Shown: positions 25,288-63,320 of the stretch, piece by piece
Numbering within the stretch: the first letter of the stretch is position 1
Layout: the number at the start of each line of letters is the position of its first letter
Notes under the pieces: model-generated
Databases searched by the model: none
What the model saw: the letters and a program-made list of their open reading frames with translations, nothing else
Told to the model about the DNA's origin: nothing
NCBI RefSeq assembly: GCF_036013525.1
Contig: NZ_CP107853.1
Location: 3,968,001 to 4,032,000, forward strand
Direction: 5' to 3'
Length of the DNA stretch: 64,000 nt
From: Nonomuraea sp. NBC_00507
GTDB taxonomy: Bacteria; Actinomycetota; Actinomycetes; Streptosporangiales; Streptosporangiaceae
Position numbers and translations under genes: made by a program

Positions 25288-26868
25288 CTACTGGAGCATC
25301 TCGCCCTTCGGGCTGACGATCACCTTGGTCTCCGCGTAGTTGGCCTTGTTGTAGACATCGGCCACTTCGCCGTTGAAGTAGGTGGAGCTGATGAAGTCGA
25401 CCCGGTCGTTGCCGTCCTGGTCGTGGAACATGCTCGTAATGCCGTTGACGTAGCCCGTGCGCTTGTTGTTGTCGTACTTCAGCATCCAGGGACCGCCGTC
25501 GGCGCCGCCGGTCATGGAGCACTTGAGCACCTGGTGCTCTTCGACCTTGAACGTATTGGCCTGGTAGAGCTTCTGGGCGGTCTTGCCCGCGCACCACTTG
25601 GGCGTGAGCCCGCTGTACGGCTTGTCGCCGTCGGGGTGCGGGTCGGCCGGGTAGCCGAAGGCGATCACGCGCTGGCCCCTCGGCTGGTTCCACGCCAGTC
25701 CCTGCCCGCCCACGTTGTCGCCAAGACGGCCCATGTCCTTGGCCTTGCCAGCGCCGGGGTAGATGAAGAAGGAGTCGTGGAAGTACTTGGTCGACTTGGT
25801 GACCTTGTACCACTGGATCAGGTAGAACTGCTTGAGCCAGTAGTCGCCTCGGTCGTCCTTGAAGACCTTGCCCTTGACCTTACCGATGGCCTTCTCGTCG
25901 AGCAGCTTCTTGTACTCGGCCTCGGTGAGCGGGGTCAGCTTGGTCGCGCCCTGGTCACCGTTCTTCCACAGCTTCGGGTCCTCGTTCGCCTTGGGAGCGT
26001 TGCTCCACTGCAACTCAGTGACCTCGACCTCATCCGTTGTCGGAACTGAGTCCACGAAGTTGCCGCCGGCCGGTTCCTTGGAGGTCACGTCCTCGGCGCG
26101 GAAGCCGCCGTTGGGGCCGTACTTGTCCAGCCCCTCCTTGTACTGCTGCTCAGCGGTCTTGCCGCCAGGAATGTCCTTCAGTTCTGTGGACTTGACGTCC
26201 TTCTTGCCCTCGAAGCTGTCGAACTCCGACTTCAGGACCTGCTTCTCGGCCACCTTATCGACGAGGGAGAAGCCGTTGTGGACGGCCACGAAGGCGAAGT
26301 CGCCGTCGTAGTCGTCGTAGGTGTCGAGGTCGTAGGCGGTGAAGGCGTACGCGCCGACGTAGACACCCCAGGGAGCTCTGCCCTTGTAGTAACCCGGCAC
26401 GAAGATCCACTTGCTGAAGACGTCCTTGCCGCTCTCGTACACGCAGTGGCCGGCGGTGGCGACCAGGTTGCGGTGGCGGGACTGGATCGACGTGGCCGAG
26501 CACCAGCGGTAGCGGCCGGCCCGGTCGATGAAGAAGACCTTGCCGATGGTCTTGGGGAGGTTGACGTTCTTACTGGCGGTCGGCTTGGCGGTGGACCCTG
26601 TCGGGGCGGTCAAGCTTGGCTTGCCATCAGGGGCTCCCTGGCTTTGGGTGGCGACCAGCTTGGACACGTTTTTGGCGTCCCAGTGGTATTGGGTCGCCTT
26701 GTGCAGAGCCGCGCCGTTGGCGTCGAGCCAGAAATTGGCGACGCCATATGCGTCTGCGGGCTTGGGCATGAGGTTGTCAGAGGCCCAGTTGGGCTCGGCG
26801 CTGGCGGGTTGGACAAGGACGGCGGCGCTCAAGCCGGCGACGGCGAGGGGGATGAGCAGGCGCTTCAA
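25288..26868 (-). CDS. Secreted trypsin-like protein, paralogue 1, catalytic Ser replaced by Asp
   Basis: A 526-residue secreted protein with a signal peptide ending in PASA (about 1-24). The chymotrypsin-fold half has SATSIQ...LVATAGHCVY with His141, a DYDGDFAFV strand supplying the Asp, and a later CSMTGGADGGPW region in which Asp457 occupies the place where proteases have Ser (GGxSGGP). About 150 residues are inserted between the His/Asp half and the Ser region (TELKDIPGGKTAEQQY to FGYPADPHPDGDKPY). The TTG start at 26868 was chosen because all three paralogues share a ribosome-binding site followed by TTGAAGCGC. By sequence it is a pseudoprotease unless Asp works otherwise. Confidence 0.8.
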   Translation of the reverse strand: MKRLLIPLAVAGLSAAVLVQPASAEPNWASDNLMPKPADAYGVANFWLDANGAALHKATQYHWDAKNVSKLVATQSQGAPDGKPSLTAPTGSTAKPTASKNVNLPKTIGKVFFIDRAGRYRWCSATSIQSRHRNLVATAGHCVYESGKDVFSKWIFVPGYYKGRAPWGVYVGAYAFTAYDLDTYDDYDGDFAFVAVHNGFSLVDKVAEKQVLKSEFDSFEGKKDVKSTELKDIPGGKTAEQQYKEGLDKYGPNGGFRAEDVTSKEPAGGNFVDSVPTTDEVEVTELQWSNAPKANEDPKLWKNGDQGATKLTPLTEAEYKKLLDEKAIGKVKGKVFKDDRGDYWLKQFYLIQWYKVTKSTKYFHDSFFIYPGAGKAKDMGRLGDNVGGQGLAWNQPRGQRVIAFGYPADPHPDGDKPYSGLTPKWCAGKTAQKLYQANTFKVEEHQVLKCSMTGGADGGPWMLKYDNNKRTGYVNGITSMFHDQDGNDRVDFISSTYFNGEVADVYNKANYAETKVIVSPKGEMLQ

Positions 26869-26967
26869 GGGAGGCTCCACGGGCGGTTGTCAAGAAAGAT
26901 GTAAAGACCCTATCGACCCATTAGTCACTCTGGTAAGGGTTCTTCTCAGATTTCTCACCAAACAGGC

Positions 26968-26999
26968 CGAAGGGCCCGGCAGAAGCCGAGCCCTTCGGG
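26968..26999 (-). terminator. Terminator after protease paralogue 2
   Basis: Inverted repeat CCGAAGGGC (26968-26976) / GCCCTTCGG (26991-26999) with a 14-nt loop, placed about 50 nt after the stop codon. The segment GCCGAGCCCTTCG is also found in the hairpin after paralogue 3. Confidence 0.65.
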
Positions 27000-27050
27000 T
27001 AAAGCGGTTGGTCTGAGGTTTGGACCCCCAGCTCCAGGGATGTCCCAGAA

Positions 27051-28631
27051 TTAGGACATCTTGCCGGACCACAGGTTGGCGGCAGCCTTGTACACCATGG
27101 CCGTCTCCCCGTCGAAGTACGACGAGTAGATGGTGTCGTTGCGGTTGTTGCTGTCGCTGTCGCCGAACACAGCGGTGGTGACACCGTTGACGTAGCCAAG
27201 ACGCTTGGCGTTGCTGTACTTGAGCAGCCACGCCGAGCCGTTGTAGCCCGGGGTGACGGCGCACTTCAGGGCAACGAGCTCCTCAGCCTTGAGAGGCGCG
27301 TAGACGTTGACCTTGGACGACGTCTTGCCGTAGCACCACTTCGGCGTGACACCCGTGTAGGGCTTGCTGCCGTCGGGGTGCTCGCCACCCGGGTACCCGA
27401 AGGTACGGACGTACTTGCCGGTCGGCTGGTTCCACGCGAAGCCCTGGCCGCCGACGTTGTCGCCGAGGCGACCAGCGTCCTTGACGGTCAGGTCCCCACC
27501 CGTGTAGATGAAGAACGAGTCGTGGTAGTACTTGGTCGCCGAGGAGACCTTGTACCACTGGATCACGTAGAACTGACGGAGCCAGTAGTCGCCCAGGTCG
27601 TCGATGAAGACCTTGCCCTTGACCTTGCCGGCGGCCTTCTCGTCGAGCAGCTTCTTGTACTGGGCCTCGGTGAGCGGGGTGTCCTTGACGGCACCCTTGT
27701 CACCGTTCTTCCACCCCGACGGGCTCTCGCTCGGGGCCGGAGCGTTGTTGTACTGCAGCTCCGTGACCTCGACCTCGTCCACGGTGGGAACGGAGTCCTC
27801 GAAGTTGCCGCCAGCCGGCTCCTTGGAGGTCACGTTCTCGGAGCGGAAGCCGCCGTTGGGGCCGTACTGGTCCAGCCCCTCCTTGTACTGCTGCTCGGCG
27901 GTCTTGCCACCGGGGATGTCCTTGAGCTCGGTGCTCTTGACTTCCTTCTTGCCCTCGTAGGCGTCGTACTCCGACTTGAGGACCTGCTTGCCCTCAACCT
28001 TGCTGAAGTTGAGGTTGATGCCGTTGTAGACCGTGACGAACGCGTAGTCGCGGTCGTAGTCCTCGTAGTTGGCGAAGTCGTAGTGGGTGAAGGCCTGCTT
28101 ACCCACGTAGATGCCCCAAGGAGCCCTGCCCTGGTAGTAACCGGGGACGAAGACCCACTTGTCGAGGACCGCCCCGTTCTGCTTCGTCTGGAAGACGCAG
28201 TGACCGGCGGTGGCAACCAGGTTGCGGTACTTCGCCTGGATGGAGGTGGCGGAGCACCAGTACAGCTTGCCGTCGACGCCCTCGAAGAACACCTTGCCGA
28301 TGGTCTTCGGCAGGTTCACGTTCTGAACCTTGGCGGTGACCTTCTTCTCTTCACCGATGGGGGCGGTGGAGCCCGGCTTGGTGTCCGCGGTATAGCCACC
28401 CGCGGTCTTGAGCTTGTCGACTTCCTTGTAGTCGAAGCGGTAGTAGGACGCGGCCCGCAGGGCAGCGCCGTTCGCCTTGAACCAGAAGTCGACGGTCTCG
28501 GCGACCTTGTTGTTCGGCGTCAGCGGAGTGTCGATGATCTCGCCGGACGCGGAAGCCGTGCCGGCCAGACCAGCAGCCAGCAGACCGGTGGCCAGGATGG
28601 CACCACCGGCGGGGAGGAGGATGCGCTTCAA
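27051..28631 (-). CDS. Secreted trypsin-like protein, paralogue 2, catalytic Ser replaced by Asn
   Basis: A 526-residue paralogue of the neighbouring genes, with signal peptide LKRILLPAGG...GTASA. The His motif TAGHCVF and the DYDRDYAFV strand are intact, but the serine region reads VTPGYNGSAW, with Asn464 at the serine place and the following GGP also changed, so this is the most divergent of the three at the active site. It shares the large central insert. TTG start at 28631 with AAGGAG 7 nt upstream; an ATG at 28673 in frame would give a 14-residue longer basic leader. Extracellular, function unknown. Confidence 0.8.
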   Translation of the reverse strand: MKRILLPAGGAILATGLLAAGLAGTASASGEIIDTPLTPNNKVAETVDFWFKANGAALRAASYYRFDYKEVDKLKTAGGYTADTKPGSTAPIGEEKKVTAKVQNVNLPKTIGKVFFEGVDGKLYWCSATSIQAKYRNLVATAGHCVFQTKQNGAVLDKWVFVPGYYQGRAPWGIYVGKQAFTHYDFANYEDYDRDYAFVTVYNGINLNFSKVEGKQVLKSEYDAYEGKKEVKSTELKDIPGGKTAEQQYKEGLDQYGPNGGFRSENVTSKEPAGGNFEDSVPTVDEVEVTELQYNNAPAPSESPSGWKNGDKGAVKDTPLTEAQYKKLLDEKAAGKVKGKVFIDDLGDYWLRQFYVIQWYKVSSATKYYHDSFFIYTGGDLTVKDAGRLGDNVGGQGFAWNQPTGKYVRTFGYPGGEHPDGSKPYTGVTPKWCYGKTSSKVNVYAPLKAEELVALKCAVTPGYNGSAWLLKYSNAKRLGYVNGVTTAVFGDSDSNNRNDTIYSSYFDGETAMVYKAAANLWSGKMS

Positions 28632-28664
28632 GGTAACTCCTTGCGCTGTCGTGGAACGCCTCTT

Positions 28665-28702
28665 GCGTCCCATGCGTCAGTAAAGGGATAGCCAGGAACA
28701 TA
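28665..28702 (-). promoter_or_regulatory. Conserved 38-bp leader/promoter block of protease paralogue 2
   Basis: This block matches 30687-30724 upstream of paralogue 3 at 37 of 38 positions, while the sequence further upstream differs. It lies 34-71 nt before the TTG start. It includes GCGTCCCATGCGTC (two TGCGTC-like half-sites) and CTATCCC on the minus strand, which could be a -10 element or an operator. Confidence 0.55.
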
Positions 28703-28906
28703 CAGTGTCGATCTTGAACTCGGGTAGTCGCTTTGAGAGGAAAAGATGCGACAAGCCGGGCGTGATCGTTCTGTGATGTTTAAGTGGCTGATGCGCAGGA
28801 GTTGAGAGAAGCTCTCCCTGTGGCCGTTTGCCCTGATCAACATAAGGAAGTTGTCAGTGTGGCCAGCGGGGCGAAGGTGTCGCGTTGATCCTCCTCCGCC
28901 CGGCGA

Positions 28907-28922
28907 TGTGACGCAGATCACA
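28907..28922. promoter_or_regulatory. Crp-like palindrome upstream of protease paralogue 2
   Basis: TGTGACGCAGATCACA fits TGTGA-N6-TCACA, the consensus of Crp/GlxR-type regulators, without mismatch. It is 276 nt before the TTG start of paralogue 2. Confidence 0.55.
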
Positions 28923-28989
28923 TTAGATTGATGGCACCGTATGGGCGCGCCATGCGTCCAAAAGCCTTCACTTTCGGGGGCTGAACGCG

Positions 28990-29017
28990 GAAGGGCTCGG
29001 CGGATGCCGAGCCCTTC
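28990..29017 (-). terminator. Terminator after protease paralogue 3
   Basis: Perfect 12-bp stem built on AAGGGCTCGGC / GCCGAGCCCTT with a 4-nt GGAT loop, 50 nt after the stop codon. No T-run. Confidence 0.65.
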
Positions 29018-29066
29018 GCTTGCGACGGTTTACGAACGGTTCATCGCCGTTCGCTCTGCGTCAACT

Positions 29067-30650
29067 TCACACAACCTTGCCGGACCACACGGTCGCGGCG
29101 GCCTTGTAGACGACGTTGGTCTCACCGTCGAAGTACGGCGAGGAGATGTAGTCCACGCGGCCGTTGCCGTCCTGGTCGTTGAAGGTGCTGGTGACACCGT
29201 TCACGTAGCCGAGACGCTTGGCGTTGCTGTACTTGTACAGCCACGGGCCACCGTCGGCGCCCTCGGTCATGGCGCACTTGAGGGCGACGTGCTCCTCGAT
29301 CTTCTTGGCGGCAGAGCCGACCAGCTTGCCCGAAGTCTTGCCGTAGCACCACTTCGGCGTGATGCCGGTGTAGGCCTTGTTGCCGTCAGGGTGCGGCGCG
29401 GCCGGGTAGCCGAACACGCGGACGTACTTGCCGGTGGGCTGGTTCCAGGCGAAGCCCTGCCCGCCGACGTTGTCGCCCAGGCGGCCAGCGTCCTTAACCG
29501 TGATGTCCCCACCCGTGAAGATGAAGAAGGAGTCGTGGAAGTACTTGGTCGACTTGGTGACCTTGTACCACTGGATCAGGTAGAACTGCTTGAGCCAGTA
29601 GTCGCCTCGGTCGTCCTTGAAGACCTTGCCCTTGACCTTGCCAGCGGCCTTCTCGTCGAGCAGCTTCTTGTACTCGGCCTCGGTGAGCGGGGTCAGCTTG
29701 GTCGCGCCCTGGTCACCGTTCTTCCACTGCTTGGGGTCCTCGCTCGCCTTGGGAGCGTTGGTCCACTGCAGCTCGGTGACCTCGACCTCGTCCGTGGTCG
29801 CAACCGAGTCCTTGAAGTTGCCGCCGGCGGCCTCCTTCGTGGTCACGTTCTCGGCGCGGAAGCCACCGTTGGGGCCGTACTTGTCCAGCCCCTCCAGGTA
29901 CTGCTGCTCCGCGGTCTTGCCGCCAGGGATGTCCTTGAGCTCGGTGCTCTTGACTTCCTTCTTGCCCTCGTAGGCGTCGTACTCCGACTTGAGGACCTGC
30001 TTGCTGTTCACACGGCTCGCGGTGATCGAGACACCGTTGTAAACGGTCACGAACGCGTAATCGCGGTCGTAGTCCTCGTAGACGTCGAAGTCGTAGTGGG
30101 TGAAGGCCTGCTTACCCACGTAGATGCCCCAAGGAGCCCTGCCCTGGTAGTAGCCGGGGACGAAGACCCACTTGGACATGACGTCCGAGTTCGCGGCGGT
30201 GTCGTACACGCAGTGGCCGGCAGTGGCGACCAGGTTGCGGTACTTGGACTGGATCGAAGTGGCGGAGCACCACTTCTTCTCGCCCTTGCTGTTGACGAAG
30301 AACACCTTGCCGATGGTCTTCGGCAGGTTCACGTTCTGAACCTTGGCGGTGGTCTTCTTCTCTTCGCCGATCGGAGCGGTCGAACCCGGCTTGGTGTCCG
30401 AGCTGTAACCGCCCTTGCTCTGCAGCTTGGCGACGTCGGCCTTGTCCCAGACGTTGGACTCGGTAGCGGCCTTGAGGGCAGCACCGTTGCTCTCCGCCCA
30501 GTAGTCGACGATCGCCTTGGCGTTGGCCGCACTCGTCGCCATCGGGTCCTTGGCGATGTCGCTGTCGGCCTGGGCCGTACCGGCCAGGCCGGCGGCCAGA
30601 AGGCCGGTAGCCATAAGGGCGCCACCGGCGGGGATGAGGATGCGCTTCAA
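29067..30650 (-). CDS. Secreted trypsin-like protein, paralogue 3, catalytic Ser replaced by Asp
   Basis: A 527-residue paralogue with signal peptide ending GTAQA. TAGHCVY and DYDRDYAFV are intact; the serine region is MTEGADGGPW with Asp466 in the Ser place, as in paralogue 1. The central insert is nearly identical to paralogue 1 at the DNA level (about 29,520-29,730 against 25,765-25,970), while the N-terminal third is closer to paralogue 2, so the copies look mosaic. TTG start at 30650 with AAGGAG upstream; ATG at 30695 is the in-frame alternative. Confidence 0.8.
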   Translation of the reverse strand: MKRILIPAGGALMATGLLAAGLAGTAQADSDIAKDPMATSAANAKAIVDYWAESNGAALKAATESNVWDKADVAKLQSKGGYSSDTKPGSTAPIGEEKKTTAKVQNVNLPKTIGKVFFVNSKGEKKWCSATSIQSKYRNLVATAGHCVYDTAANSDVMSKWVFVPGYYQGRAPWGIYVGKQAFTHYDFDVYEDYDRDYAFVTVYNGVSITASRVNSKQVLKSEYDAYEGKKEVKSTELKDIPGGKTAEQQYLEGLDKYGPNGGFRAENVTTKEAAGGNFKDSVATTDEVEVTELQWTNAPKASEDPKQWKNGDQGATKLTPLTEAEYKKLLDEKAAGKVKGKVFKDDRGDYWLKQFYLIQWYKVTKSTKYFHDSFFIFTGGDITVKDAGRLGDNVGGQGFAWNQPTGKYVRVFGYPAAPHPDGNKAYTGITPKWCYGKTSGKLVGSAAKKIEEHVALKCAMTEGADGGPWLYKYSNAKRLGYVNGVTSTFNDQDGNGRVDYISSPYFDGETNVVYKAAATVWSGKVV

Positions 30651-30686
30651 GGGAACTGCTCCTTGCTCTGTCGTGGGTCGCAACAT

Positions 30687-30724
30687 GCGTCCCATGCGTC
30701 AGTAAAGGGATAGCAAGGAACATA
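30687..30724 (-). promoter_or_regulatory. Conserved 38-bp leader/promoter block of protease paralogue 3
   Basis: Counterpart of the block at 28665-28702 (one mismatch), located 37-74 nt upstream of the TTG start. Confidence 0.55.
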
Positions 30725-51697: not shown

Positions 51698-54600
51698 ATG
51701 ACGTTTTGGCGTGCGCGAAATCGGTCGAGTGCCGTGATGGGGCGCAGTGGTTTTGGGCTGAAGCCGAAGGGCCGCCTGCGAGCCAGGATCACCGTGGTCT
51801 TGGCTGCCGCACTCATTCCGAGCCTGATCCAGTTACAGATAGAGCCTGCGGCGGCCGATCCGCTCCGTACGCGCCTCGATATTCCGCAGTCGCCTACCAA
51901 CGGCGCGTCAAGCAGCGTTCCGGTCCAGCAGACGGGCACCGCCAAGAACCTGCCCCACCTGGTCGGCCCCGAGGCCACCCAGACCAGCATTGACACCGCC
52001 ACCGTGAAAGGCGGCAAGCGGCCCAAGGGCGCGTTACTGCTGGACGAGCCGCACGAACTCGCCGATTCGTCCATCGAAGGCCTGAAGACCCCGCCACCCC
52101 TCCCTGAAGGGTCTGAGCCGGAGCCCGCCAGTCCTCCAACCGGGAATGCGCCAGCCGCTGTACCTCCCGCTCGGAACGCATCGGCCACCGCTCCGCTGCC
52201 CCGCCCGGCCGTGGTCCGGTCCGGTGTCAAAGAACGCGCCCGAGATGCACAAGTGGCGGTTACCTTGGCGGGGCCGACGGTGTCGAACCTGTCGTCGTCC
52301 GGGCAGTTGTCATCGGGGTTGTGGACGTTCTCGACGTTGACGCCGACGTTTTCGGCGTACGTGTCCGATGCCGAATGCCGAGAACTGCTGCTCAAAGTTG
52401 AGGTGGAGCATGACCCATCGGCTGCGGGTCAAGGCAGTGGGCTGATCTGGTCGGGGCAAAGCTCCTACAACACCGGAGCCTGCGGCATCACCCTCACCAG
52501 CTCAGCGGTGGCATCCGGGAAGCTTCAGGATGGGTGGCTCATTCGCTGGCGGGTTCGGGGGCAGGCGGGTGGCGTGGACGGTCCTTGGTCGGAATGGCAG
52601 GCTGGCAGGGTCGACACCACGAAGCCGACGGTGTCGAACCTGTCGTCGTCGGGGCAGTTGGCGTCGGGGTTGTGGACGTTCTCGACGTTGACGCCAACGT
52701 TTTCGGCATATGTAGACGACCCCGAGTGCCGGGAGTTCATGCTGAAGGTCGAAGTTGAGCACGACCCGTCGGCCGCTGGCCAGGGCAGTGGGTTGATCTG
52801 GACGGGGCAAAGCCCCTTTATGACCGGAGCCTGCGGCAGCACCCTCAGCAGTTCAGCGGTGCCAACCGGCACTCTTCAAGACGGGTGGCTCATCCGGTGG
52901 CGTGTCCGAGGGCAAGCCGGAAACGCCACAGGACCCTGGTCAGAGTGGCAGGCCGGGAGAATCGACACCACGAAGCCGACGGTGTCGAACCTGTCGTCGT
53001 CGGGGCAGTTGGCGTCGGGGTTGTGGACGTTCTCGACGTTGACGCCAACGTTTTCGGCATATGTAGACGACCCCGAGTGCCGGGAGTTCATGCTGAAGGT
53101 CGAAGTTGAGCACGACCCGTCGGCCGCTGGCCAGGGCAGTGGGTTGATCTGGACGGGGCAAAGCCCCTTTATGACCGGAGCCTGCGGCAGCACCCTCAGC
53201 AGTTCAGCGGTGCCAACCGGCACTCTTCAAGACGGGTGGCTCATCCGGTGGCGTGTCCGAGGGCAAGCCGGAAACGCCACAGGACCCTGGTCAGAGTGGC
53301 AGGCCGGGAGAATCGACACCACGAAGCCGACGGTGTCGAACCTGTCGTCGTCGGGGCAGTTGGCGTCGGGGTTGTGGACGTTCTCGACGTTGACGCCAAC
53401 GTTTTCGGCATATGTAGACGACCCCGGATGCCGGGAGTTCATGCTGAAGGTCGAAGTTGAGCACGACCCGTCGGCCGGCGCTCAGGGCAGTGGGTTGATC
53501 TGGACGGGGCAAAGCCCGTACACCACCGGAGCCTGCGCTACCACTCTGACCAGCTCAGCAGTCGCATCCAGCACCCTCCAGGATGGATGGCTCATCCGCT
53601 GGCGCGTCCGAGGGCAAGCCGGAAACGCCACAGGACCCTGGTCAGAGTGGCAGGCCGGGAGAATCGACACCACGAAGCCGACGGTGTCGAACCTGTCGTC
53701 GTCGGGGCAGTTGGCGTCGGGGTTGTGGACGTTCTCGACGTTGACGCCGACGTTTTCGGCATATGTAGACGACCCCGGATGCCGTGAGCTCCTGCTGAAA
53801 GTCGAAGTTGAGCACGACCCGTCGGCCGGCGCTCAGGGCAGTGGGTTGATCTGGACGGGGCAAAGCCCGTACACCACCGGAGCCTGCGCTACCACTCTGA
53901 CCAGCTCAGCAGTCGCATCCAGCACCCTCCAGGATGGATGGCTCATCCGCTGGCGCGTCCGAGGGCAAGCCGGAAACGCCACAGGACCCTGGTCAGAATG
54001 GCAAGCCGGGAAAGTGGAGGTGAACAAACCGGCAGGAAGCGGGCTCGGGGCCTTGCCCGCGACTCAAGGTTCGGGCACATGGGTTCTGTCCTCGTTAACG
54101 CCTTGGCTGTTTATGAAGGTGACCGATCCCGGCGGTTCCGCGTCGTACCTTGACGCGGAGATCGAGCATGATCCATTGTCGTCAGGGCAGGGTAGCGGGC
54201 TTATCTGGGCCGGTAGGGGACAAACCTCGTATGCGTCGGGCTCCAACGCCTGGCTGCAAGTGCCTGCTGGGAAACTCGCCGACGGGTGGTTGATCCGCTG
54301 GCGAGTGCGAGGGGTCACCACAACGGGCACCAGCGGCGTGTGGTCGGAGTGGCAATTGGCCACAGTTGACCTGAAGAAACCTTCGGTCGCCGGACTGGGA
54401 GTCACGCCAGGTACGCAGGGCTCAGGTTTATGGACGGTCCCATCACTGACGCCGTGGGTGTACGCGAAAGTGAGCGATCCCGAGTCGCGTGGGTCCTATC
54501 TGAGCATTGAGATCGAGCACGATCCCGCAGCGGCCAGTCAGGGCACAGGGCCAATCTGGGCGGGCAAGGGATCGAAGGCGTACGACTCGGGCTCGAATGC

Positions 54601-57600
54601 GTGGGTGCAGATTCCCGGTGGCAAATTGAGTGACGGCTGGCTGGTTCGATGGCGGGTCCGTGGCGAGACCACGTCTGGTGTCGCAGGGCCGTGGTCAGAT
54701 TGGCAGTTGACCAGGGTTGACCTGAATAAGCCGTCGATCGAAGGGTTGGGGATGGACCCAGCTGTGCGTGGTACGGCGTCGTGGACGGCTGCCACCTTGA
54801 CGCCGTGGCTGTACGCGAAGGTCACCGACCCGGAGAATCGCAGGTCCGTCCTCGATGTCGAGGTGGAACACGATCCGATCGTGGCGGAACAGGGATCGGG
54901 TGTGATCTGGGCAGGCTCGTCGGCGACCTCGTATGCGTCTGGCACGAACGCGTGGGCCGTGGTGCCCGCCGAAAAGTTGAAGGACGGCTGGCTGGTTCGC
55001 TGGCGGGTCCGGGCCACCACGATCTCGGGCATGAGCAGCCCGTGGTCAGACTGGCAATCGGCCAAGGTGAGCGCGTTGCCCTTCGAGACGTTCTCGCCTG
55101 CCAACAACTCCCAGGTCAGCACACTGACACCGGTGCTGTCGGCGAACGCTCGCCCGCTGAACGAGGCTCCGGTCAAGTATTGGTTCCAGGTGTGTGAGGG
55201 CACTGCCCCGAACTGGACCTGGTGCGAAAGCTCGCCCGAGTGGAGCACTACCGGCGCCTGGCAGGTGCCGGACAAGAAACTTGCTTGGGGCAAGACGTAC
55301 TCGTGGATGGCCAAGGCCGCCACCACTTTCACGACGGTGACCTCCGCTTGGCGTACCCTCACCCCGGCGGTGGAGCAGGGCAACATCAACTCCCTGCTGG
55401 CGGGCGGCACGCAGGGCCGCGAATTCAACCATGTCTCGGGCAATTACGGCCACACCGCAACCGATGCCTCGGTGGCGGTCGTCGGTCCGCCGATGTCGGT
55501 GACCCGTACCTACAACAGCCTGGACCCGCGCACTGATGGCGCCTTTGGCGCGGGCTGGACCACCCGGTGGGACATGCGGATCGACGTGGAGCCTCAGGGA
55601 AGTCTCCTGGTGACGTACCCGGCGGGCGAGCAGATGCGGTTCGCACCCAAGGGGGACGGCACTTTCGCCGCCCCGTCTGGCACATTCGCCACGCTCGCCG
55701 CCGAGTCTGGGGGCGGCTGGCGGCTGATGGACAAGTCGGCCACCTCCTACTGGTTCGACGCAGCCGGCAAGCTCACCAAGATCACCGACCATCGGGGCCG
55801 GTCCCAGGAGCTCGCCCGCGGCACCGACGGCAAGCTGACGAAGGTGACCGCGACCGGAGGCCGGTCACTGACGTTCACCTGGACCAGCAACCACGTCACG
55901 AGCGTGTCCACTGACCCGGTCGACGGTAAGCCGTTGACCTGGACCTACGCCTACGACGGTGACCAGCTGGTGAAGGTGTGCCCGCCCACCTCGGCTACCG
56001 CGTGCACCGCCTACAGCTACACGGCTGCCTCCCGTTACAAGAGCGTGGTGCTGGACTCGGCCCCGGAGTACTACTACCGGCTGAACGAGACTGCCACCAC
56101 GACCGGGACGAAAGTCGCTTCCTCGGCGGGTTGGAACATCACCGAGGAACAGGCCAAGCTCACCGGCACCACCCCGGCCGACCTTGGCGTGGGTGTGGCG
56201 GGTGCGTTAGGCGGATCGCCGGATACGGCGATGAGGTTCAAGGGCGCGGCCACCTCTACCTTCGTTCAGCTGCCCCGCTCGACGATCAGCGGGCAGGGCG
56301 GCGAGTTGGCGGTGGAGGCATGGTTCAAGACCACCGCCTCCGGCACGATCATCGGGATGCAGAATTCGGCCGATAACACCCCATCGGCGTTCACCCCCGT
56401 GGTGTATGTCGGCACTGACGGCAAGCTGCGCGGCCAGTTCTACACCGGCGCGCACACCCCGATCACCTCCACCGCGGCGGTGAACGACGGCACCTGGCAT
56501 CACGTGGTGCTGTCAGGCCGCAAGGACACGCAGACTCTGTTCCTGGACGGCGCCCAGATCGGCACCCTGTCCGGCGAGATCAAGCACGGCGATCAGTGGG
56601 AGACCCGGATCGGGTCCGGCTACGGCAGTACGGCGTGGCCCTCCACGACCACCTCGACCAAGGTGTTCCCATTCAACGGCGACATCGACGAGGTCGCGGT
56701 ATACGGCAAGCCGCTCGGTGCGCCGACGGTGCAGCGGCATTATGTAGCGCGTACCGCCCAGCCGCAACTGACCAAGGTCACGATGCCGTCGGGACGGGTA
56801 GACGCGGACAACACCTACGCCGCTGACGGCGGACGCCTGGTGACCCATGTCGATGCCAACGGTGGTAAGTGGACGTTGTCGGAGCCGGTATATGCCAAGC
56901 AGACGACCATCTCCACCTTCGCCACCGTGACGGTCACGGATCCGCACAATGGCGTCGTCACGTACGTCAGCGATGCACAGCGTGGTAACCGGCCGGTATC
57001 GGAGAGCGACCAGGTGGGGGCGACTACGAAGTGGGCCTATGACGTCGGCGGATACCCGGCCAAGGTGTTCGACGCCAATAACAACGTGGTCGAGGTCGCC
57101 TACGACGCGCGCGGGAACTTGCTGTCGAAGAAGACCTGTCGTACGGCTGGCGCCAGCTGTTCGACGGAGTACTACAGCTATTTCATCGACGCCGACAAGC
57201 CGTTCGACCCGCGTAACGATGTGAAGATTGCTGAGCGTGACGGACGGTCGGCTTCGGCGACGGACGAGACCTACAGGACCTCCTGGGCGCACAACGCTTT
57301 CGGCGAGGAGATCAAGGTCACCACCCCGGCGACAGAGGACTTCCCCGTCGGCCGTACCGCAACCAAGACCTACACCGACGGCACGGAAGCGGCGGTCGGT
57401 GGCGGCTCCATGCCCGCGGGCCTGGTGAAGTCGGCCAAGGATTACAAGGGGAACGAGACCACCTACGCCTACACCGCTGCCGGTGATCTCGCGACCGAGA
57501 CCATACCGTCGGGGTTGGTGAAGAAGTACGCTCACGACACGATCGGCCGGGTGATCTCCACCACTGAGATCTCCACAGTGCACCCGGAGGGCGTCACCAC

Positions 57601-60600
57601 CACCATCACCTATGACGGCCTGGGCAGGGTGCTGACCAAGACCGGGCCGGGCGTGAAGAACGAGGTCACCGGCAAGACGCATACGTTGCGCTGGTCGGCC
57701 ACCTACGACGCCGACGGCCTGGTACTGACCGAGATCAACGAGGACCTGACCGGCGGGGATGCGGCTCGCACCACGACCTACACCCACGACACCTACGGGC
57801 GGCAGGAGACGGTCACCGACGCCGAAGGCGGGGTCACGAGGTTCGGCTACGACGCCAGGGGCCTGAAGGTCACGTCCACCGACGCGCGCGGTGCCACGCT
57901 GGCCTATACCTACACGCCGCGCGGAGAGCCGGCCACCACGGTGTTGAAGGGATGGACGGGCAGCCCGCTCGCCCCCCAGCTGGCCACCGATGTGGTGATG
58001 GAGTCCATCGCGTACGACCCCGCGGGCCGCGTCGCGTCCAAGACCGACGCGATGGGCCGCACCACCGCCTACACCTACTACGCTGACGGCCTACCATTCG
58101 AGCAGGTCGCCAAGGGCGCCAAGCTGAACGGCTCCGCCACCGGCCGCGACGTCGTGCTGGACTCGCGGGCGTACGACGCGGCAGGGCAGCTGACCCAGCA
58201 GATCATCGATGGCGGCACGCTGCGCATCGATGCCGCCTACGACGCCGCCGGGCGGATCACCACGCAGGTGGTCGACCCGGAGAAGCTGGCGCGCAAGACC
58301 AGCCTCACCTACGACGCGAACAACAACGTGACCAGGGCGACGCGCACCGGCGCGGGTGCCGGCCGGAGCGAGGTTTCCGAGTATCAGTACGACGTGCTCG
58401 ACCAGCCGACCAAGCAGATCGTCCGCAACGACGGCGCCGACCTGATCACCACGCTCACCATGGATGATCGGGGACTGGTGACCGCGATGACCGACCCGCG
58501 CGGCAACGCCACAGGCGCCAACGCGGCCGACTTCACCACCAGCGTGACCTACAACGAGGCCGGGCGGCCGGTGCTGCTGCAGCTGCCCGCCGTGCAGGTG
58601 GAACGCAACGGTGGCACCGCCGTCGGCGAACGGCCTGCCTCCAAACTGGGCTACAACACCTTCGGCCAGCGTACTGAGCAGATCGACGCCGAAGGTCGTA
58701 CCACCACGACGACCTACGACCGGGCCGGGCGCGTCACCAAGCAGACCTTCCCGCCCTACACTCCGCCCGGCGGGCAGCCGATCACCCCGACCACTACCAC
58801 GGAATACGACGCCGCCGGCCAGGTGATCAAGGCCATCAACCAGCGCGGCCAGATCACCACCGCCCTCTATGACGCGCTGGGCCGCAAGGTGAAGGTCACC
58901 GACCCACCCGCCAACGGCGCCGCCGCCGGGACATGGACGTTCGGTTACGACCTGCTCGGTGAATCGCTGTGGACCGTAGACCCGAACGGAGCCCGCTCCG
59001 AGGCCACCTACGACGACCTCGGGCGGCAGATCACGCTCTCCACGATCGAGCGTAAGCCGACCCCCGGCATCTACGTCACCAAGGTGGACTACGACGACGC
59101 GGGCAGACTGACCAAGACCACCCGTCCCACCGGCGATGTCTCTACCCGCGCCTACGACGCGGCCGGTGCGATGGTCAAGCACACCGACGCGCTCGGGAAC
59201 ACGACCACGTTCGGTTACGACCTGGCCGGACGCGCGACCACGACCACGAACGCACTCGGGCTCACCTCCCAGGCCGTCTACGACCTGGCCGGCCGCATGA
59301 CCGAGAGCCGCGAGCTGGATGCGAACGGGAAGGTGCTGCGTACCCGGAAGGTCGGCTACGACCTGGCCGGCAACCCGATCAGCAGCACCTCAGGTGAGGG
59401 TCACACCGTCACCCGCTCCTTCGACGCGGCCAACCGCATGACCCAGCTGGTCGAGCCGGTCTCCGCGTCCGAGCAGATCACCAGCACCTTCGGGTACGAC
59501 GCCACCGGCGCGCAGACCCGCGCCACCAACGGGCGCGGTCACTCCACCTACACCACTTACAACAGCCTCGGCCTGGTGGAGACAGTGATCGAACCGCCCA
59601 CCGCGCAGCACCCGGACCTGAAGGACCGCACCTGGACCGCCACCTACGACGCAGGCGGCAACCCGACCGTCACCCTGGCCCCCGGCGGGGTACGGGTCGA
59701 GCGTACGTTCGACGAGCTCAACCGGCTCATCAAGCAGACCGGCAGCGGCGCCGAGGCCGAGACCGAGGCCAAGACGTTCGGCTATGACCAGGCCGGACGA
59801 CTGATCACTGCCAACGATCTGACCTTCACCCTCAACGACCGCGGCCAGTTGCTGAAGTCCAGCAGCGCCACGGCCGGCGACCTGAACGTCTACGCCTATG
59901 ACGCCAACACGCGGCTCGTCCAGCGCACCGACGGGACCGGAACCTCCACCTTCTCGTGGGATGACGGCGACCGGCTCACCCAGGCGGTGGACCCCGTCTC
60001 GGCCACCACCATCGGGTACAGCTACGACAAGGCCAACCGGCTTACCGGCATGGCCTACGGCACGAACGGCGTTCGTCGCACCTACGCCTACGACGACCTG
60101 AATCGGCTCACCACGGACAGCCTCGCCACATCGTCGGCCGCGCCGATCGCGTCCATCGAGTACGGCTACGACCTGGACGACAACATGACGTTCAAGACCA
60201 CTGCCGGTACGGCAGGCGCAGGGAAGAACACCTACACCTACGACTGGGCCAACCGGCTCATCTCCTGGACCGACCCTGGCGGGGTCAAGACCGACTACGG
60301 CTGGGACGCGGCAGGCAACCGCGTCAAGGCCGGGAGCAAGACCTACGCCTATGACGAACGCAACCGCCTCACCTCCGGCGACGGCCGGACCTACACCTAC
60401 ACCGCCCGCGGCACCCTCGCGGAAGAGGGCGGCGGCCTGGTCCGCATCGCCAAGTCCGACGCCTTCGACCACATGGTCAGCGACGACGGCGTGACTTACG
60501 ACTACGACGCCCTCGACCGGGTCGAAACCCGCACCTACAGTGGGAAGACCACGCGGATGACCTACGACGGCCAGACCAACAACCTGATCGCCGCCACCGA

Positions 60601-62092
60601 CACCTCCACCGGCGCCCAGGCGACGTTCGGCCGGGATCCGTCCGGTCACACGCTCAGCCTGTCTGATGGAGCCGGCGCGCAGTTCGCCTTCTGCGACCTT
60701 CGGGGGGACCTGATCGGTACGTTCACCAACGCAGGGACCGCGCTGGCGGACTCCATCGCCTACAACCCCTTCGGCGAGGTGACCTCCCGTAGCGGTGCCG
60801 CGCACATGCTCGGCTATCAGGGCGGTTACACCGATCCCGACACCGGCAAGGTCAACATGGCGGCGCGCTGGTACCAGCCGGCCACCGGCAGCTTCATCAG
60901 CCGCGACACTCTCCTCCAGAACCCGGATCCCAGTGTCCAGCTCAACCGCTACACCTACGCCAACGACAATCCTCTGACCAATACCGACCCCACCGGCCAC
61001 GCCTCCTGCGCGAAGAAGCCCAACCAGAAGAAGTGCAAGACGGCCCTGGTGACACTCCAGGGCGAGAAGACCGGCTCGAAGAAGTGGAAGGCCGCCTGCT
61101 CGACGCTGGGAGTCACCACAACCGAATGCAAGGGCCTGGACAAGCAATACACGCACTGCGTCTATCCCAAGAAAACAACGTCTGCCTGTGTCGACATGGC
61201 GGGCGACTACATCACGTGCAGGAGGGATAACAGCACCACGGCGAAACAGTGCAACGAATCGGCGAGCAACTACATGGCCTGCCGGCACCAGAACATCGAC
61301 AAGAAGACATGCTCTGGCGCCGAACGATCCTGGCGCGACTGCCTCAACGACTATGGGGCGAAAGACACCCGACAGTGCGGTGGTACCCGGGATCACTTCT
61401 ACGGATGTATGAAGAAGCTCGGAAAAAACGGGGACAACTGGGACGGCAACGATTCGAAGTGCGCGAACTACGCGGAACTCGGGTATCGATGTGACGCGTC
61501 CAACTTGCTGAAGCCGGATGACTGCAGGACAACTCTGAGGGGATATATGTCGTGCCTGGATAACGCAAGTTCATCGATATACGCCTGCTCGTTCGGCAGT
61601 CTGCAGAGGATGTATTGCCTCAGGGATGTAAGGACCGGATGGTTCGAGGACGAAGACATATGCACGGCAGCCTGGAAGGGATCTCAGAAGTGTTCGAAGA
61701 CGTGCTCGGGAGGGAAAGACTGGAGGAACCAGAGTTCGGCCATATGCGAGACAAAAAAGGATGGCAAGGATATTTTTGCGAGCACGCATACCAAGTGCAG
61801 TTACTATGTCAGCGCGAAAGACCTGGAGAATTACAAGACCGAAGGTTACAAGACGCCGAACCCGGTCGATGCCGGCCTCACAATGTGTACAGCAATATGG
61901 GGATTCCCGGAACTGGCTGGGTCCTGCGCTGTGATGCAAGGGCTCTCAAAGATGTTCGAAGGCGCCGGCGCGGACAAGATCAGGGAAAATTTGAGCGAGT
62001 TCGGAATTCTTATACACAGGAAGGGGTACCACAACCCCCTTACTCCGCCACCATACGAAACTCCGGATCTGTTCACGTATCTGCCGCTCTAG
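51698..62092 (+). CDS. Giant secreted RHS-repeat protein with cysteine-rich C-terminal tip
   Basis: A 3,464-residue polymorphic-toxin-type protein. Signal/anchor region (about 28-53, ending PAAA); proline-rich linker to about 194; eight N-terminal repeats of about 117 residues (195-1128), the first five with two cysteines each; a DUF6531-like entry to the RHS shell (SGNYGHTATDASV...TRTYNSLDP, about 1250); a LamG jellyroll (about 1450-1680); YD repeats (about 1690-3030, e.g. YDAAGRITTQV, FGYDLAGRATT); and the RHS core end GYQGGYTDPDTGKVNMAARW (from 3039) to TNTDPTGHA (about 3102). The last 362 residues are a Cys-rich tip unlike the rest, with lower GC. RHS shells encapsulate and deliver such tips, usually toxins. 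Confidence 0.9.
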   Translation: MTFWRARNRSSAVMGRSGFGLKPKGRLRARITVVLAAALIPSLIQLQIEPAAADPLRTRLDIPQSPTNGASSSVPVQQTGTAKNLPHLVGPEATQTSIDTATVKGGKRPKGALLLDEPHELADSSIEGLKTPPPLPEGSEPEPASPPTGNAPAAVPPARNASATAPLPRPAVVRSGVKERARDAQVAVTLAGPTVSNLSSSGQLSSGLWTFSTLTPTFSAYVSDAECRELLLKVEVEHDPSAAGQGSGLIWSGQSSYNTGACGITLTSSAVASGKLQDGWLIRWRVRGQAGGVDGPWSEWQAGRVDTTKPTVSNLSSSGQLASGLWTFSTLTPTFSAYVDDPECREFMLKVEVEHDPSAAGQGSGLIWTGQSPFMTGACGSTLSSSAVPTGTLQDGWLIRWRVRGQAGNATGPWSEWQAGRIDTTKPTVSNLSSSGQLASGLWTFSTLTPTFSAYVDDPECREFMLKVEVEHDPSAAGQGSGLIWTGQSPFMTGACGSTLSSSAVPTGTLQDGWLIRWRVRGQAGNATGPWSEWQAGRIDTTKPTVSNLSSSGQLASGLWTFSTLTPTFSAYVDDPGCREFMLKVEVEHDPSAGAQGSGLIWTGQSPYTTGACATTLTSSAVASSTLQDGWLIRWRVRGQAGNATGPWSEWQAGRIDTTKPTVSNLSSSGQLASGLWTFSTLTPTFSAYVDDPGCRELLLKVEVEHDPSAGAQGSGLIWTGQSPYTTGACATTLTSSAVASSTLQDGWLIRWRVRGQAGNATGPWSEWQAGKVEVNKPAGSGLGALPATQGSGTWVLSSLTPWLFMKVTDPGGSASYLDAEIEHDPLSSGQGSGLIWAGRGQTSYASGSNAWLQVPAGKLADGWLIRWRVRGVTTTGTSGVWSEWQLATVDLKKPSVAGLGVTPGTQGSGLWTVPSLTPWVYAKVSDPESRGSYLSIEIEHDPAAASQGTGPIWAGKGSKAYDSGSNAWVQIPGGKLSDGWLVRWRVRGETTSGVAGPWSDWQLTRVDLNKPSIEGLGMDPAVRGTASWTAATLTPWLYAKVTDPENRRSVLDVEVEHDPIVAEQGSGVIWAGSSATSYASGTNAWAVVPAEKLKDGWLVRWRVRATTISGMSSPWSDWQSAKVSALPFETFSPANNSQVSTLTPVLSANARPLNEAPVKYWFQVCEGTAPNWTWCESSPEWSTTGAWQVPDKKLAWGKTYSWMAKAATTFTTVTSAWRTLTPAVEQGNINSLLAGGTQGREFNHVSGNYGHTATDASVAVVGPPMSVTRTYNSLDPRTDGAFGAGWTTRWDMRIDVEPQGSLLVTYPAGEQMRFAPKGDGTFAAPSGTFATLAAESGGGWRLMDKSATSYWFDAAGKLTKITDHRGRSQELARGTDGKLTKVTATGGRSLTFTWTSNHVTSVSTDPVDGKPLTWTYAYDGDQLVKVCPPTSATACTAYSYTAASRYKSVVLDSAPEYYYRLNETATTTGTKVASSAGWNITEEQAKLTGTTPADLGVGVAGALGGSPDTAMRFKGAATSTFVQLPRSTISGQGGELAVEAWFKTTASGTIIGMQNSADNTPSAFTPVVYVGTDGKLRGQFYTGAHTPITSTAAVNDGTWHHVVLSGRKDTQTLFLDGAQIGTLSGEIKHGDQWETRIGSGYGSTAWPSTTTSTKVFPFNGDIDEVAVYGKPLGAPTVQRHYVARTAQPQLTKVTMPSGRVDADNTYAADGGRLVTHVDANGGKWTLSEPVYAKQTTISTFATVTVTDPHNGVVTYVSDAQRGNRPVSESDQVGATTKWAYDVGGYPAKVFDANNNVVEVAYDARGNLLSKKTCRTAGASCSTEYYSYFIDADKPFDPRNDVKIAERDGRSASATDETYRTSWAHNAFGEEIKVTTPATEDFPVGRTATKTYTDGTEAAVGGGSMPAGLVKSAKDYKGNETTYAYTAAGDLATETIPSGLVKKYAHDTIGRVISTTEISTVHPEGVTTTITYDGLGRVLTKTGPGVKNEVTGKTHTLRWSATYDADGLVLTEINEDLTGGDAARTTTYTHDTYGRQETVTDAEGGVTRFGYDARGLKVTSTDARGATLAYTYTPRGEPATTVLKGWTGSPLAPQLATDVVMESIAYDPAGRVASKTDAMGRTTAYTYYADGLPFEQVAKGAKLNGSATGRDVVLDSRAYDAAGQLTQQIIDGGTLRIDAAYDAAGRITTQVVDPEKLARKTSLTYDANNNVTRATRTGAGAGRSEVSEYQYDVLDQPTKQIVRNDGADLITTLTMDDRGLVTAMTDPRGNATGANAADFTTSVTYNEAGRPVLLQLPAVQVERNGGTAVGERPASKLGYNTFGQRTEQIDAEGRTTTTTYDRAGRVTKQTFPPYTPPGGQPITPTTTTEYDAAGQVIKAINQRGQITTALYDALGRKVKVTDPPANGAAAGTWTFGYDLLGESLWTVDPNGARSEATYDDLGRQITLSTIERKPTPGIYVTKVDYDDAGRLTKTTRPTGDVSTRAYDAAGAMVKHTDALGNTTTFGYDLAGRATTTTNALGLTSQAVYDLAGRMTESRELDANGKVLRTRKVGYDLAGNPISSTSGEGHTVTRSFDAANRMTQLVEPVSASEQITSTFGYDATGAQTRATNGRGHSTYTTYNSLGLVETVIEPPTAQHPDLKDRTWTATYDAGGNPTVTLAPGGVRVERTFDELNRLIKQTGSGAEAETEAKTFGYDQAGRLITANDLTFTLNDRGQLLKSSSATAGDLNVYAYDANTRLVQRTDGTGTSTFSWDDGDRLTQAVDPVSATTIGYSYDKANRLTGMAYGTNGVRRTYAYDDLNRLTTDSLATSSAAPIASIEYGYDLDDNMTFKTTAGTAGAGKNTYTYDWANRLISWTDPGGVKTDYGWDAAGNRVKAGSKTYAYDERNRLTSGDGRTYTYTARGTLAEEGGGLVRIAKSDAFDHMVSDDGVTYDYDALDRVETRTYSGKTTRMTYDGQTNNLIAATDTSTGAQATFGRDPSGHTLSLSDGAGAQFAFCDLRGDLIGTFTNAGTALADSIAYNPFGEVTSRSGAAHMLGYQGGYTDPDTGKVNMAARWYQPATGSFISRDTLLQNPDPSVQLNRYTYANDNPLTNTDPTGHASCAKKPNQKKCKTALVTLQGEKTGSKKWKAACSTLGVTTTECKGLDKQYTHCVYPKKTTSACVDMAGDYITCRRDNSTTAKQCNESASNYMACRHQNIDKKTCSGAERSWRDCLNDYGAKDTRQCGGTRDHFYGCMKKLGKNGDNWDGNDSKCANYAELGYRCDASNLLKPDDCRTTLRGYMSCLDNASSSIYACSFGSLQRMYCLRDVRTGWFEDEDICTAAWKGSQKCSKTCSGGKDWRNQSSAICETKKDGKDIFASTHTKCSYYVSAKDLENYKTEGYKTPNPVDAGLTMCTAIWGFPELAGSCAVMQGLSKMFEGAGADKIRENLSEFGILIHRKGYHNPLTPPPYETPDLFTYLPL
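52280..54034 (+). repeat. Five tandem 351-bp repeats in the RHS gene
   Basis: Units start at 52280, 52631, 52982, 53333 and 53684, an exact 351-bp (117-residue) period. By reading, units 2 and 3 are identical and units 4 and 5 almost identical, while unit 1 is more distant. Three further diverged protein repeats follow up to about 55,080. Confidence 0.9.
61127..61693 (+). repeat. Nine tandem C-x9-C motifs in the RHS tip
   Basis: Residues 3144-3332 contain nine successive motifs with exactly nine residues between the cysteines, separated by linkers of 9-17 residues. In six of nine the seventh residue is aromatic (Tyr, Trp or Phe). Examples: CKGLDKQYTHC, CVDMAGDYITC, CSGAERSWRDC, CRTTLRGYMSC. 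See findings. Confidence 0.85.
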
Positions 62093-62144
62093 TTTTCGCT
62101 GCTCGCGCTGATCGAGGCTGCTGCCTCGGTTGGGAGGCATGGAG

Positions 62145-63320
62145 ATGACTCTCCCTGCAGACCTGCGGGGGAACGCCACGTCGGACCGGAAGGCAAGGAT
62201 CGCTTCGATCCTTGCGGTTGCTCTGCCAATGGCCGTGTTCAGCGCCATACTCACCGGGCAGGCGACCACGCATGTCTCTCCACGCGAAGGTGTTGCCTGG
62301 GACATGGGCGCAGCGGACGTGCGCATCTTTGACTCCGAGTCGACGGTGCCAGTCGAGCAGGACAGCAATGGTTATGAGCTCTACCCGCTGAGAGACCGCT
62401 CCGAGACGCGAAAGCCCTACACTCGTGCACAGATCGAGGCCGTGTTGCCCGAAGGCGGCAGGGCGATACCTTTCAGCGTCGATGACGGGCCCTGGCCGGG
62501 ATGGCCCGGCGCAGTCGCGGAGCTGGATCTGAGAGATCCGATAACGCGCGGCATGTATCCGCTGGTACGCGGACGATACCCGCAGGCCAAAGGCGAGCTC
62601 CTGGTCACCGAGGGTAAATATGACGCCGTTCATGCGGCACTGGCCAACTTCAAGCCCGGGAGCAGATTCGCTGAAACGGTGAAGATAGTCGGGGTCGCCG
62701 TCGACATCCGGCGCGACCGGATTCCCCCCACTGTCTCCTTCCCCGGAACGGGGTTGGTGGAAAATGGAGGACTCTGGCGGGAGTGGTTGGTGGACACGTC
62801 TGGGCCCATTGGCTCGGAGCAGGTCAACGAGCTGAACAAGAAGGGGCTCTACGTCAGATCGCGGTCAGTCATCGATGGCCCTCCACTGCCGGATCAGCGA
62901 TCTGACAGCTTGGACAGGGAACACCATCTGACGGAGCCGGATTTCTCGAACACTCTCGTCTGGTGCGTGGTGGTCTGTCTGGCGCTGGTGTACCCGTGTC
63001 TGGTTTTTCTCGTGCATCGCCGCGTGCGAGGCCGGCGGAAGCGCCTGGCAATCAGGCTGATACTGGCAATCCCGGTAAGCATCGGATTCGGGCTCATGTG
63101 CGCAGCGTGGCTGACGCCACACATTGCGGAATCGGCCACAGGCCCGTACGAAGTTCCTGTGGAGCCGATTCTGGCCGTAGCCGCTATGGGCGAAGGCGTC
63201 ATCGCGTTCGCCCTCCCTAGGGCGCTCTACTTCCACGCGACAACCCGCAGTACCAGGGCTGGCTCGTCACCGGTCGGCGTCGATGACCCAGATGACGCAA
63301 GGGATGGTCGTCCCTCCTAA
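62145..63320 (+). CDS. Membrane protein with MacB-like extracytoplasmic domain, RHS neighbour
   Basis: 391 residues from the ATG at 62145 (GGGAGG 7 nt upstream; an ATG at 62139 is too close to it). One helix near 20-38, a long extracytoplasmic domain (about 40-265; includes GELLVTEGKYDAVHAALANFKPGSRF, reminiscent of MacB/FtsX permease periplasmic domains), then three helices (about 275-295, 310-332 and 340-362) and a polar tail. No ABC ATPase is nearby. It follows the toxin-like RHS gene by 52 nt in the same direction, the classic place of an immunity gene, but a decayed FtsX-type permease is equally possible. Confidence 0.6.
   Translation: MTLPADLRGNATSDRKARIASILAVALPMAVFSAILTGQATTHVSPREGVAWDMGAADVRIFDSESTVPVEQDSNGYELYPLRDRSETRKPYTRAQIEAVLPEGGRAIPFSVDDGPWPGWPGAVAELDLRDPITRGMYPLVRGRYPQAKGELLVTEGKYDAVHAALANFKPGSRFAETVKIVGVAVDIRRDRIPPTVSFPGTGLVENGGLWREWLVDTSGPIGSEQVNELNKKGLYVRSRSVIDGPPLPDQRSDSLDREHHLTEPDFSNTLVWCVVVCLALVYPCLVFLVHRRVRGRRKRLAIRLILAIPVSIGFGLMCAAWLTPHIAESATGPYEVPVEPILAVAAMGEGVIAFALPRALYFHATTRSTRAGSSPVGVDDPDDARDGRPS

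Follow-up and report, generated by a model that had tools for sequence, protein, structure and literature searches.

The 64,000-nucleotide stretch of DNA from Nonomuraea sp. NBC_00507 analysed here (contig NZ_CP107853.1, positions 3,968,001 to 4,032,000; hereafter the window, in whose numbering positions are given) encodes on its plus strand an RHS protein of 3464 amino acids (51698..62092) that ends in an exchangeable, cysteine-rich tip with an array of C-x9-C units. The protein runs from a hydrophobic N-terminus through repeats, a LamG-like domain and RHS repeats to the tip, and a profile search with Pfam and NCBIfam models identified the LamG-like domain, DUF6531, the RHS repeats and the core end. 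The RHS_repeat model (PF05593) matches 22 stretches with 269 bits against a cut-off of 22, and the RHS repeat-associated core end (TIGR03696) lies at 60761..61000 of the plus strand, residues 3022-3101, with an expect value (E) of 1.7e-18 and 66.8 bits against a cut-off of 32.5. By repeats and core end above the curated cut-offs, the protein is an RHS/YD-repeat protein. It is probably secreted, since residues 31-47 form a hydrophobic, signal-like stretch that fits a signal peptide. In the N-terminal part of the gene (52273-53975), a repeat of ~351 bases occurs in several nearly identical copies.

The tip itself (61004..62089, plus strand; residues 3103-3464) has 26 cysteines in 362 residues, as compared to 17 in the 3102-residue core, and a guanine-plus-cytosine content of 0.555 against 0.660 in the core, bearing out the lower value noted in the original prediction, which was made from the letters of the window alone. 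That prediction described nine tandem C-x9-C units, and nine exact units are present in the window at 61127..61693 of the plus strand, starting at 61127, 61187, 61250, 61310, 61376, 61460, 61523, 61586 and 61661. Counting overlaps, the tip contains 12 CX9C motifs, whereas 20000 shuffled sequences average 1.75 and reach at most 9, so that none matches the tip. The successive linkers of 9, 10, 9, 11, 17, 10, 10 and 14 residues match the predicted range of 9 to 17, and an aromatic residue at position 7, said to be the rule, was counted by eye in six of the nine units. The array does not extend over the whole 362-residue tip, as first thought: the last ~130 residues (61694..62089, plus strand), with five further cysteines, lie outside it and look like a separate segment, a putative effector or cap for which the predicted local distance difference test score is mostly below 50.

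The spacing is conserved across relatives. In an alignment of 15 members including the window (A4), six of the nine window units have both cysteines at a spacing of nine in all 15, a further unit does so in all 14 members that have both cysteines, and the first does so in 13 of 15, with x15 in the other two. The ninth unit has nine intervening residues in the window only and is C-x10-C in all 14 relatives. The conserved core is therefore eight units, and the ninth CX9C is peculiar to the window, so that the prediction of nine exact units holds for this tip and not for its family. The 43 members together contain 402 CX9C motifs, overlaps included, compared to 62.8 +/- 7.5 in shuffles, and the lists of gaps between cysteines mostly show nine alternating with variable linkers, with some units of 8 or 10. 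The 19 RHS tips counted carry 7-11 exact, non-overlapping units each. A selection from these members, with 199 units, gives the consensus C-x2-A-x3-Y-x2-C-R, with tyrosine in 58% and an aromatic residue in 68% at position 7, and alanine in 33% at position 3. Linkers in a subset of members are 6-24 residues long, with lengths of 8-10 the commonest (89 of 153), and 85 of the 153 start with arginine. One copy with an internal stop (L087) was omitted from alignments A6 and A10.

Searches with the tip and with profiles, which the original prediction had proposed for finding the tip on other scaffolds, do recover it on other RHS proteins. The tip search found relatives in 8 of 98 genomes, the source genome included, and all eight are Nonomuraea. 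A profile of 13 members (A2) extended this to 32 of the 345 genomes searched in the order (6 of 70 genera), to 5 of 394 genomes in a class sample and to the source genome alone among 396 in a phylum sample. These counts are lower bounds, as 5-6 candidates were scored per genome; every carrier belongs to the Streptosporangiaceae, and no array was found outside that family in the order, class or phylum samples. A protein search with the full-length RHS protein returned only itself, an initial contig scan with the window tip gave no match, and a match at L031 (G032) was judged to be chance upon inspection of its sequence.

Twenty RHS tips or tip fragments were inspected and sorted into three types, with names introduced here. 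Type I tips (eight) have the array followed by a hydrophobic C-terminus, with two predicted transmembrane (TM) stretches in seven and one in the eighth; type II tips (nine) have the array with a different C-terminal domain; and type III comprises the window tip and those of genomes G050 and G038. Window-type tips were also found on RHS proteins of N. polychroma, N. dietziae, Streptosporangium vulgare and one JGI source. Array and effector are separable, given that one RHS protein (L028, G043) ends in the same hydrophobic module as type I tips but lacks a CX9C array. The array also occurs in two kinds of stand-alone protein. One consists of TM-anchored, lipidated or secreted "partners", and the other of lipoproteins of ~340 residues, in which the array and a CAFG..CLRD region match type III tips. 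The lipoproteins come from Nonomuraea basaltis, N. zeae, Microtetraspora glauca, M. fusca, Microtetraspora sp. NBRC 16547, Microbispora sp. H13382 and Streptosporangium carneum. A tree built from 41 arrays, from which p_G098b and lipo_G166 were omitted, groups the partners with type II tips (99/97) and joins the lipoproteins to type III tips (100/100). Broken or fragmentary copies of the lipoprotein also occur (L070, L071, L087 and G176:C56, the last two of which may be one copy).

The low-GC tip had been thought to be acquired by tip exchange, and the same locus in a conspecific genome, G098, captures such an exchange. The core of the two RHS genes is 87.7% identical in DNA up to window position 61040, and beyond the tip the downstream membrane gene is 80% and the far flank 92% identical. 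Between them, G098 replaces the window tip by a type II tip, an anchored CX9C partner and a second, seemingly frame-broken CX9C partner, and the junction falls within the opening codons of the tip. Tip cassettes are thus exchanged within the species, and the conserved core with a variable, exchangeable C-terminus agrees with the pattern of polymorphic RHS/YD-repeat proteins. A short broken array fragment lies ~2 kb behind an intact tip in G021, as expected of displaced tips.

Membrane or anchored genes are tightly linked behind most other tips. Seven of eight type I tips are followed, at -55 to +16 nt, by an open reading frame (ORF) of 62-96 residues with two predicted TM helices, compared to a background of 1 in 145 open frames of more than 300 codons at seven loci, coding or not. 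Behind seven of nine type II tips lies an anchored CX9C protein, at -34 to +32 nt, and three of these seven tip-partner pairs are close relatives; of the remaining two tips, one has an anchored WD40-like protein and one is without a clear downstream partner. The type III tips of G038 and G050 are followed by anchored WD40-like proteins at -14 and +148 nt, which are 36-38% identical to each other and 33-36% identical to the type II neighbour in G048; Pfam calls WD40 in the G050 protein only. Membrane-anchored WD40-like proteins thus sit behind three array-tipped RHS genes (L021, 7505-8908; L064; L074), with mutual identities of 33-38%.

Behind the window tip lies a membrane protein related to part of the FtsX-like permeases (62142..63320, plus strand), with a ratio of nonsynonymous to synonymous substitutions (dN/dS) of 0.29. 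Longer proteins with a part that resembles it occur in 51 of 54 genomes, and two of these proteins are FtsX-like permeases by Pfam. This 396-residue gene was considered as private immunity for the window tip, and the idea found no support. The same gene stands behind the other tip in G098, the stretch immediately before it is similar in DNA to the 3' end of a G098 partner gene, and a 67% identical copy occurs in G015, where the 4 kb read held no array ORF. As it is present at both loci despite their different tips, it is probably a resident gene rather than the partner of the window tip. Elsewhere in the window, on the minus strand at 25288-30695, are three tandem protease-like genes (530-542 residues, trypsin-like by eye). 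In both G050 and G041, genes that resemble this trio lie within ~10 kb of an RHS gene with an array tip, similar DNA lies near the G038 tip, and the protease-like genes might process RHS proteins.

CX9C pairs are best known from proteins of the mitochondrial intermembrane space, usually with one pair per protein, and the original prediction proposed helical hairpins stapled by the C-x9-C cysteines. The helices are predicted, and the hairpins less firmly. In the AlphaFold2 model of the tip, each of the first eight units has both cysteines inside one helix and the ninth is helical in its first part, and a four-unit model also places helices on the units; the packing into hairpins is of moderate confidence. 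With Foldseek, the whole tip model found only generic helical proteins (best E 0.23), hence no significant fold match, and the 29 matches listed for the four-unit model include at least four NDUFA8 chains. Profile searches against PDB did lead to mitochondrial proteins of CHCH type. Profile A2 matched best an NDUFA8-like chain, 7zm7_U (E 4.3e-6), which is named only as an NADH-ubiquinone oxidoreductase and which we read as NDUFA8 from its alignment, and also CHCHD5 (E 8.5e-5); 37 of its 39 matches were named as mitochondrial complex I, CHCH, COA6 or ATP-synthase proteins, and the other two names were uninformative. Profile A3 gave a best E of 7.3e-6, and A4 one of 1.6e-4 with 26 of 28 matches bearing the same kinds of name and two uninformative. 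The submodel region gave a best E of 3.1e-4, with 4 of 30 matches to fructose bisphosphatases at E 0.58.

The curated Pfam cut-offs for CHCH-type models were all missed by the window tip, with 16.4 bits against 24.4 for Pet191_N and 15.0 against 26 for COX6B. The CHCH model itself (PF06747) reached a best E of 0.0087, in two of 13 members, and one further member scored 14.1 bits against a cut-off of 27.2 with a CHCH-type model. No described toxin family matched the tip above cut-off in Pfam, NCBIfam, PHROGs or PADLOC, and LEA_6, EntA and other weak matches fell below cut-off.

From the conserved array, its reuse on several RHS scaffolds, the swapping of cassettes and the genes behind most other tips, we consider it somewhat probable that the window feature is the variable tip of a polymorphic, probably secreted RHS protein, made of a disulfide-stapled helix array and a C-terminal effector segment. 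The units most likely fold into CHCH-like antiparallel hairpins that would be stapled by disulfides after export. Several observations weigh against this reading. The model of the tip has a predicted template modelling score of only 0.59, or moderate confidence, and the ninth unit is C-x10-C in every aligned relative. The C-terminal segment of the window is only mildly hydrophobic, with a best 19-residue mean of 1.18, and the tip is without a clear partner, given the downstream gene in common with G098. The window tip is divergent, such that its long branch makes its exact place in the array tree unsure. The stand-alone lipoproteins have no RHS gene flagged nearby in the five loci read, and therefore a non-toxin role also fits. 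Toxicity, export and disulfides of the tip are putative, and no match to VKOR (PF07884) was found in the source genome, though the tip seems to need extracytoplasmic oxidation. The likeness to CHCH proteins is also less specific than the profile matches suggest. In a control on the array region, columns were scrambled once per profile within the blocks between cysteines so as to keep the cysteine spacing, and the scrambled profiles still ranked NDUFA8 first, with E of 0.057 (A2) and 0.0028 (A3); the anchored partner proteins alone matched no CHCH protein. Because the scrambled controls still find NDUFA8 first, the CHCH signal comes mostly from cysteine lattice and composition. Given this and the missed cut-offs, the array is best called CHCH-like, in that it may work like a CHCH protein, rather than a CHCH member.

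These same controls open the way to a helical cysteine repeat whose disulfides pair differently, as when the second cysteine of a unit bonds with the first of the next helix and clamps the linker, and whose likeness to CHCH arises only by convergence. The commonest linkers, of 8-10 residues, would permit such loop-closing bonds, and spacing and composition suffice to bring up NDUFA8, the partners alone match no CHCH protein and the whole-model fold search yields only generic helical proteins. Against this reading, residue order adds ~13 bits (A2) and ~8 bits (A3) to the true profiles over the scrambled ones, with one scramble each, and the tyrosine at position 7 recalls the CX6YLXC motif that a passage of PMC7909247 places in each helix of yeast COX19. 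We regard this topology as a serious possibility, yet one that we would bet against.

It seems unlikely, though less so than homology with CHCH proteins, that the array is a surface module and not a toxin, that is, a protease-resistant binding or spacer array on RHS proteins and lipoproteins that sticks to a target or spans the cell wall. The same array in lipoproteins of Nonomuraea, Microtetraspora, Microbispora and Streptosporangium, away from any flagged RHS gene in the five loci read, would fit such a role, as would the purifying selection on these lipoproteins (dN/dS 0.20 and 0.23 in two pairs) and the window tip without an evident private partner. However, the small membrane genes tightly linked behind other tips, the exchange of whole cassettes and the hydrophobic hairpins of type I tips look like a toxin-immunity organisation, and the broken lipoprotein copies are therefore dispensable in those genomes. 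True homology with the eukaryotic CHCH family, through transfer or a bacterial root of the fold, is improbable, even with the E values for NDUFA8 and CHCHD5 and the NDUFA8 chains found with the four-unit model in its favour.

The variable tip with stapled array and effector segment, as the reading that we favour, can be set beside three known kinds of protein. Polymorphic RHS/YD-repeat toxins, such as the bacterial teneurin-like proteins of PMC13018210, resemble the window protein in that their RHS core leads into a C-terminal module that varies, and resemble the array family in the small genes directly behind its other tip types. According to that paper, one C-terminal domain reaches the membrane in simulation and, when exported, stops growth; a downstream gene confers immunity in one tested case (PMC13018210). 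The tip described here differs from those in PMC13018210 in being a tandem CX9C array whose toxicity is putative. CdiI-type two-TM immunity proteins, as listed in a table of PMC3482391, resemble the type I relatives, where a small two-TM protein stands right behind a tip with hydrophobic helices; the likeness is one of organisation, and the window tip lacks a two-TM protein behind it. The mitochondrial CHCH proteins (COX17, COX19, NDUFA8, CHCHD5) share with the tip C-x9-C motifs in helices, which are predicted for the tip, an aromatic or hydrophobic residue at position 7 and an oxidising extracytoplasmic setting, which is presumed for the tip. Unlike them, the array is bacterial, sits on RHS proteins or lipoproteins, misses the Pfam cut-offs and has 7-11 exact units in the tips read, rather than one pair or the two CHCH domains that a passage of PMC10653836 gives for ~8% of CHCH proteins.

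A possible mechanism begins with the RHS shell, which would carry the tip in a reduced, unfolded state. Once outside the cell, oxidation would turn the array into a rigid stapled rod, which might present or insert the C-terminal segment at the envelope of a neighbour, and anchored array paralogues on the producer could bind or mask the tip to confer immunity or tethering. That the tip is reduced inside the shell and folds upon release is suggested by analogy with COX17 and COX19, which a passage of PMC11930124 describes as disordered when reduced, and with TRIAP1, which has nested inner and outer disulfides. It is a more doubtful extension that the Streptosporangiaceae have evolved a poly-CHCH fold, located outside the cytoplasm, of up to ~11 stapled helices as a delivery rod of secreted RHS toxins, and that some producers are protected by membrane-anchored copies of the array, such that toxin and immunity would have one fold in common and recognise each other through array-to-array contact.

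Among the papers listed in searches of open-licence PubMed Central (PMC) literature on CX9C, CHCH and RHS, no title or abstract beginning describes a tandem CX9C RHS tip, and a term search of the main text of Zhang et al. 2012 (PMC3482391) returned neither "CHCH" nor "disulfide". The array is a new kind of RHS tip, and its relatives within the Streptosporangiaceae suggest an exchangeable weapon or binding module, often with partners anchored on the producer; for the window tip, toxin and adhesive module, as first proposed, are both candidate roles. A bacterial family with 7-11 exact tandem units on exchangeable RHS tips, adjoined in some cases by anchored paralogues, allows disulfide-driven folding, whether convergent or shared, to be tested outside eukaryotes, and may point to a form of immunity based on a protective copy of part of the tip.

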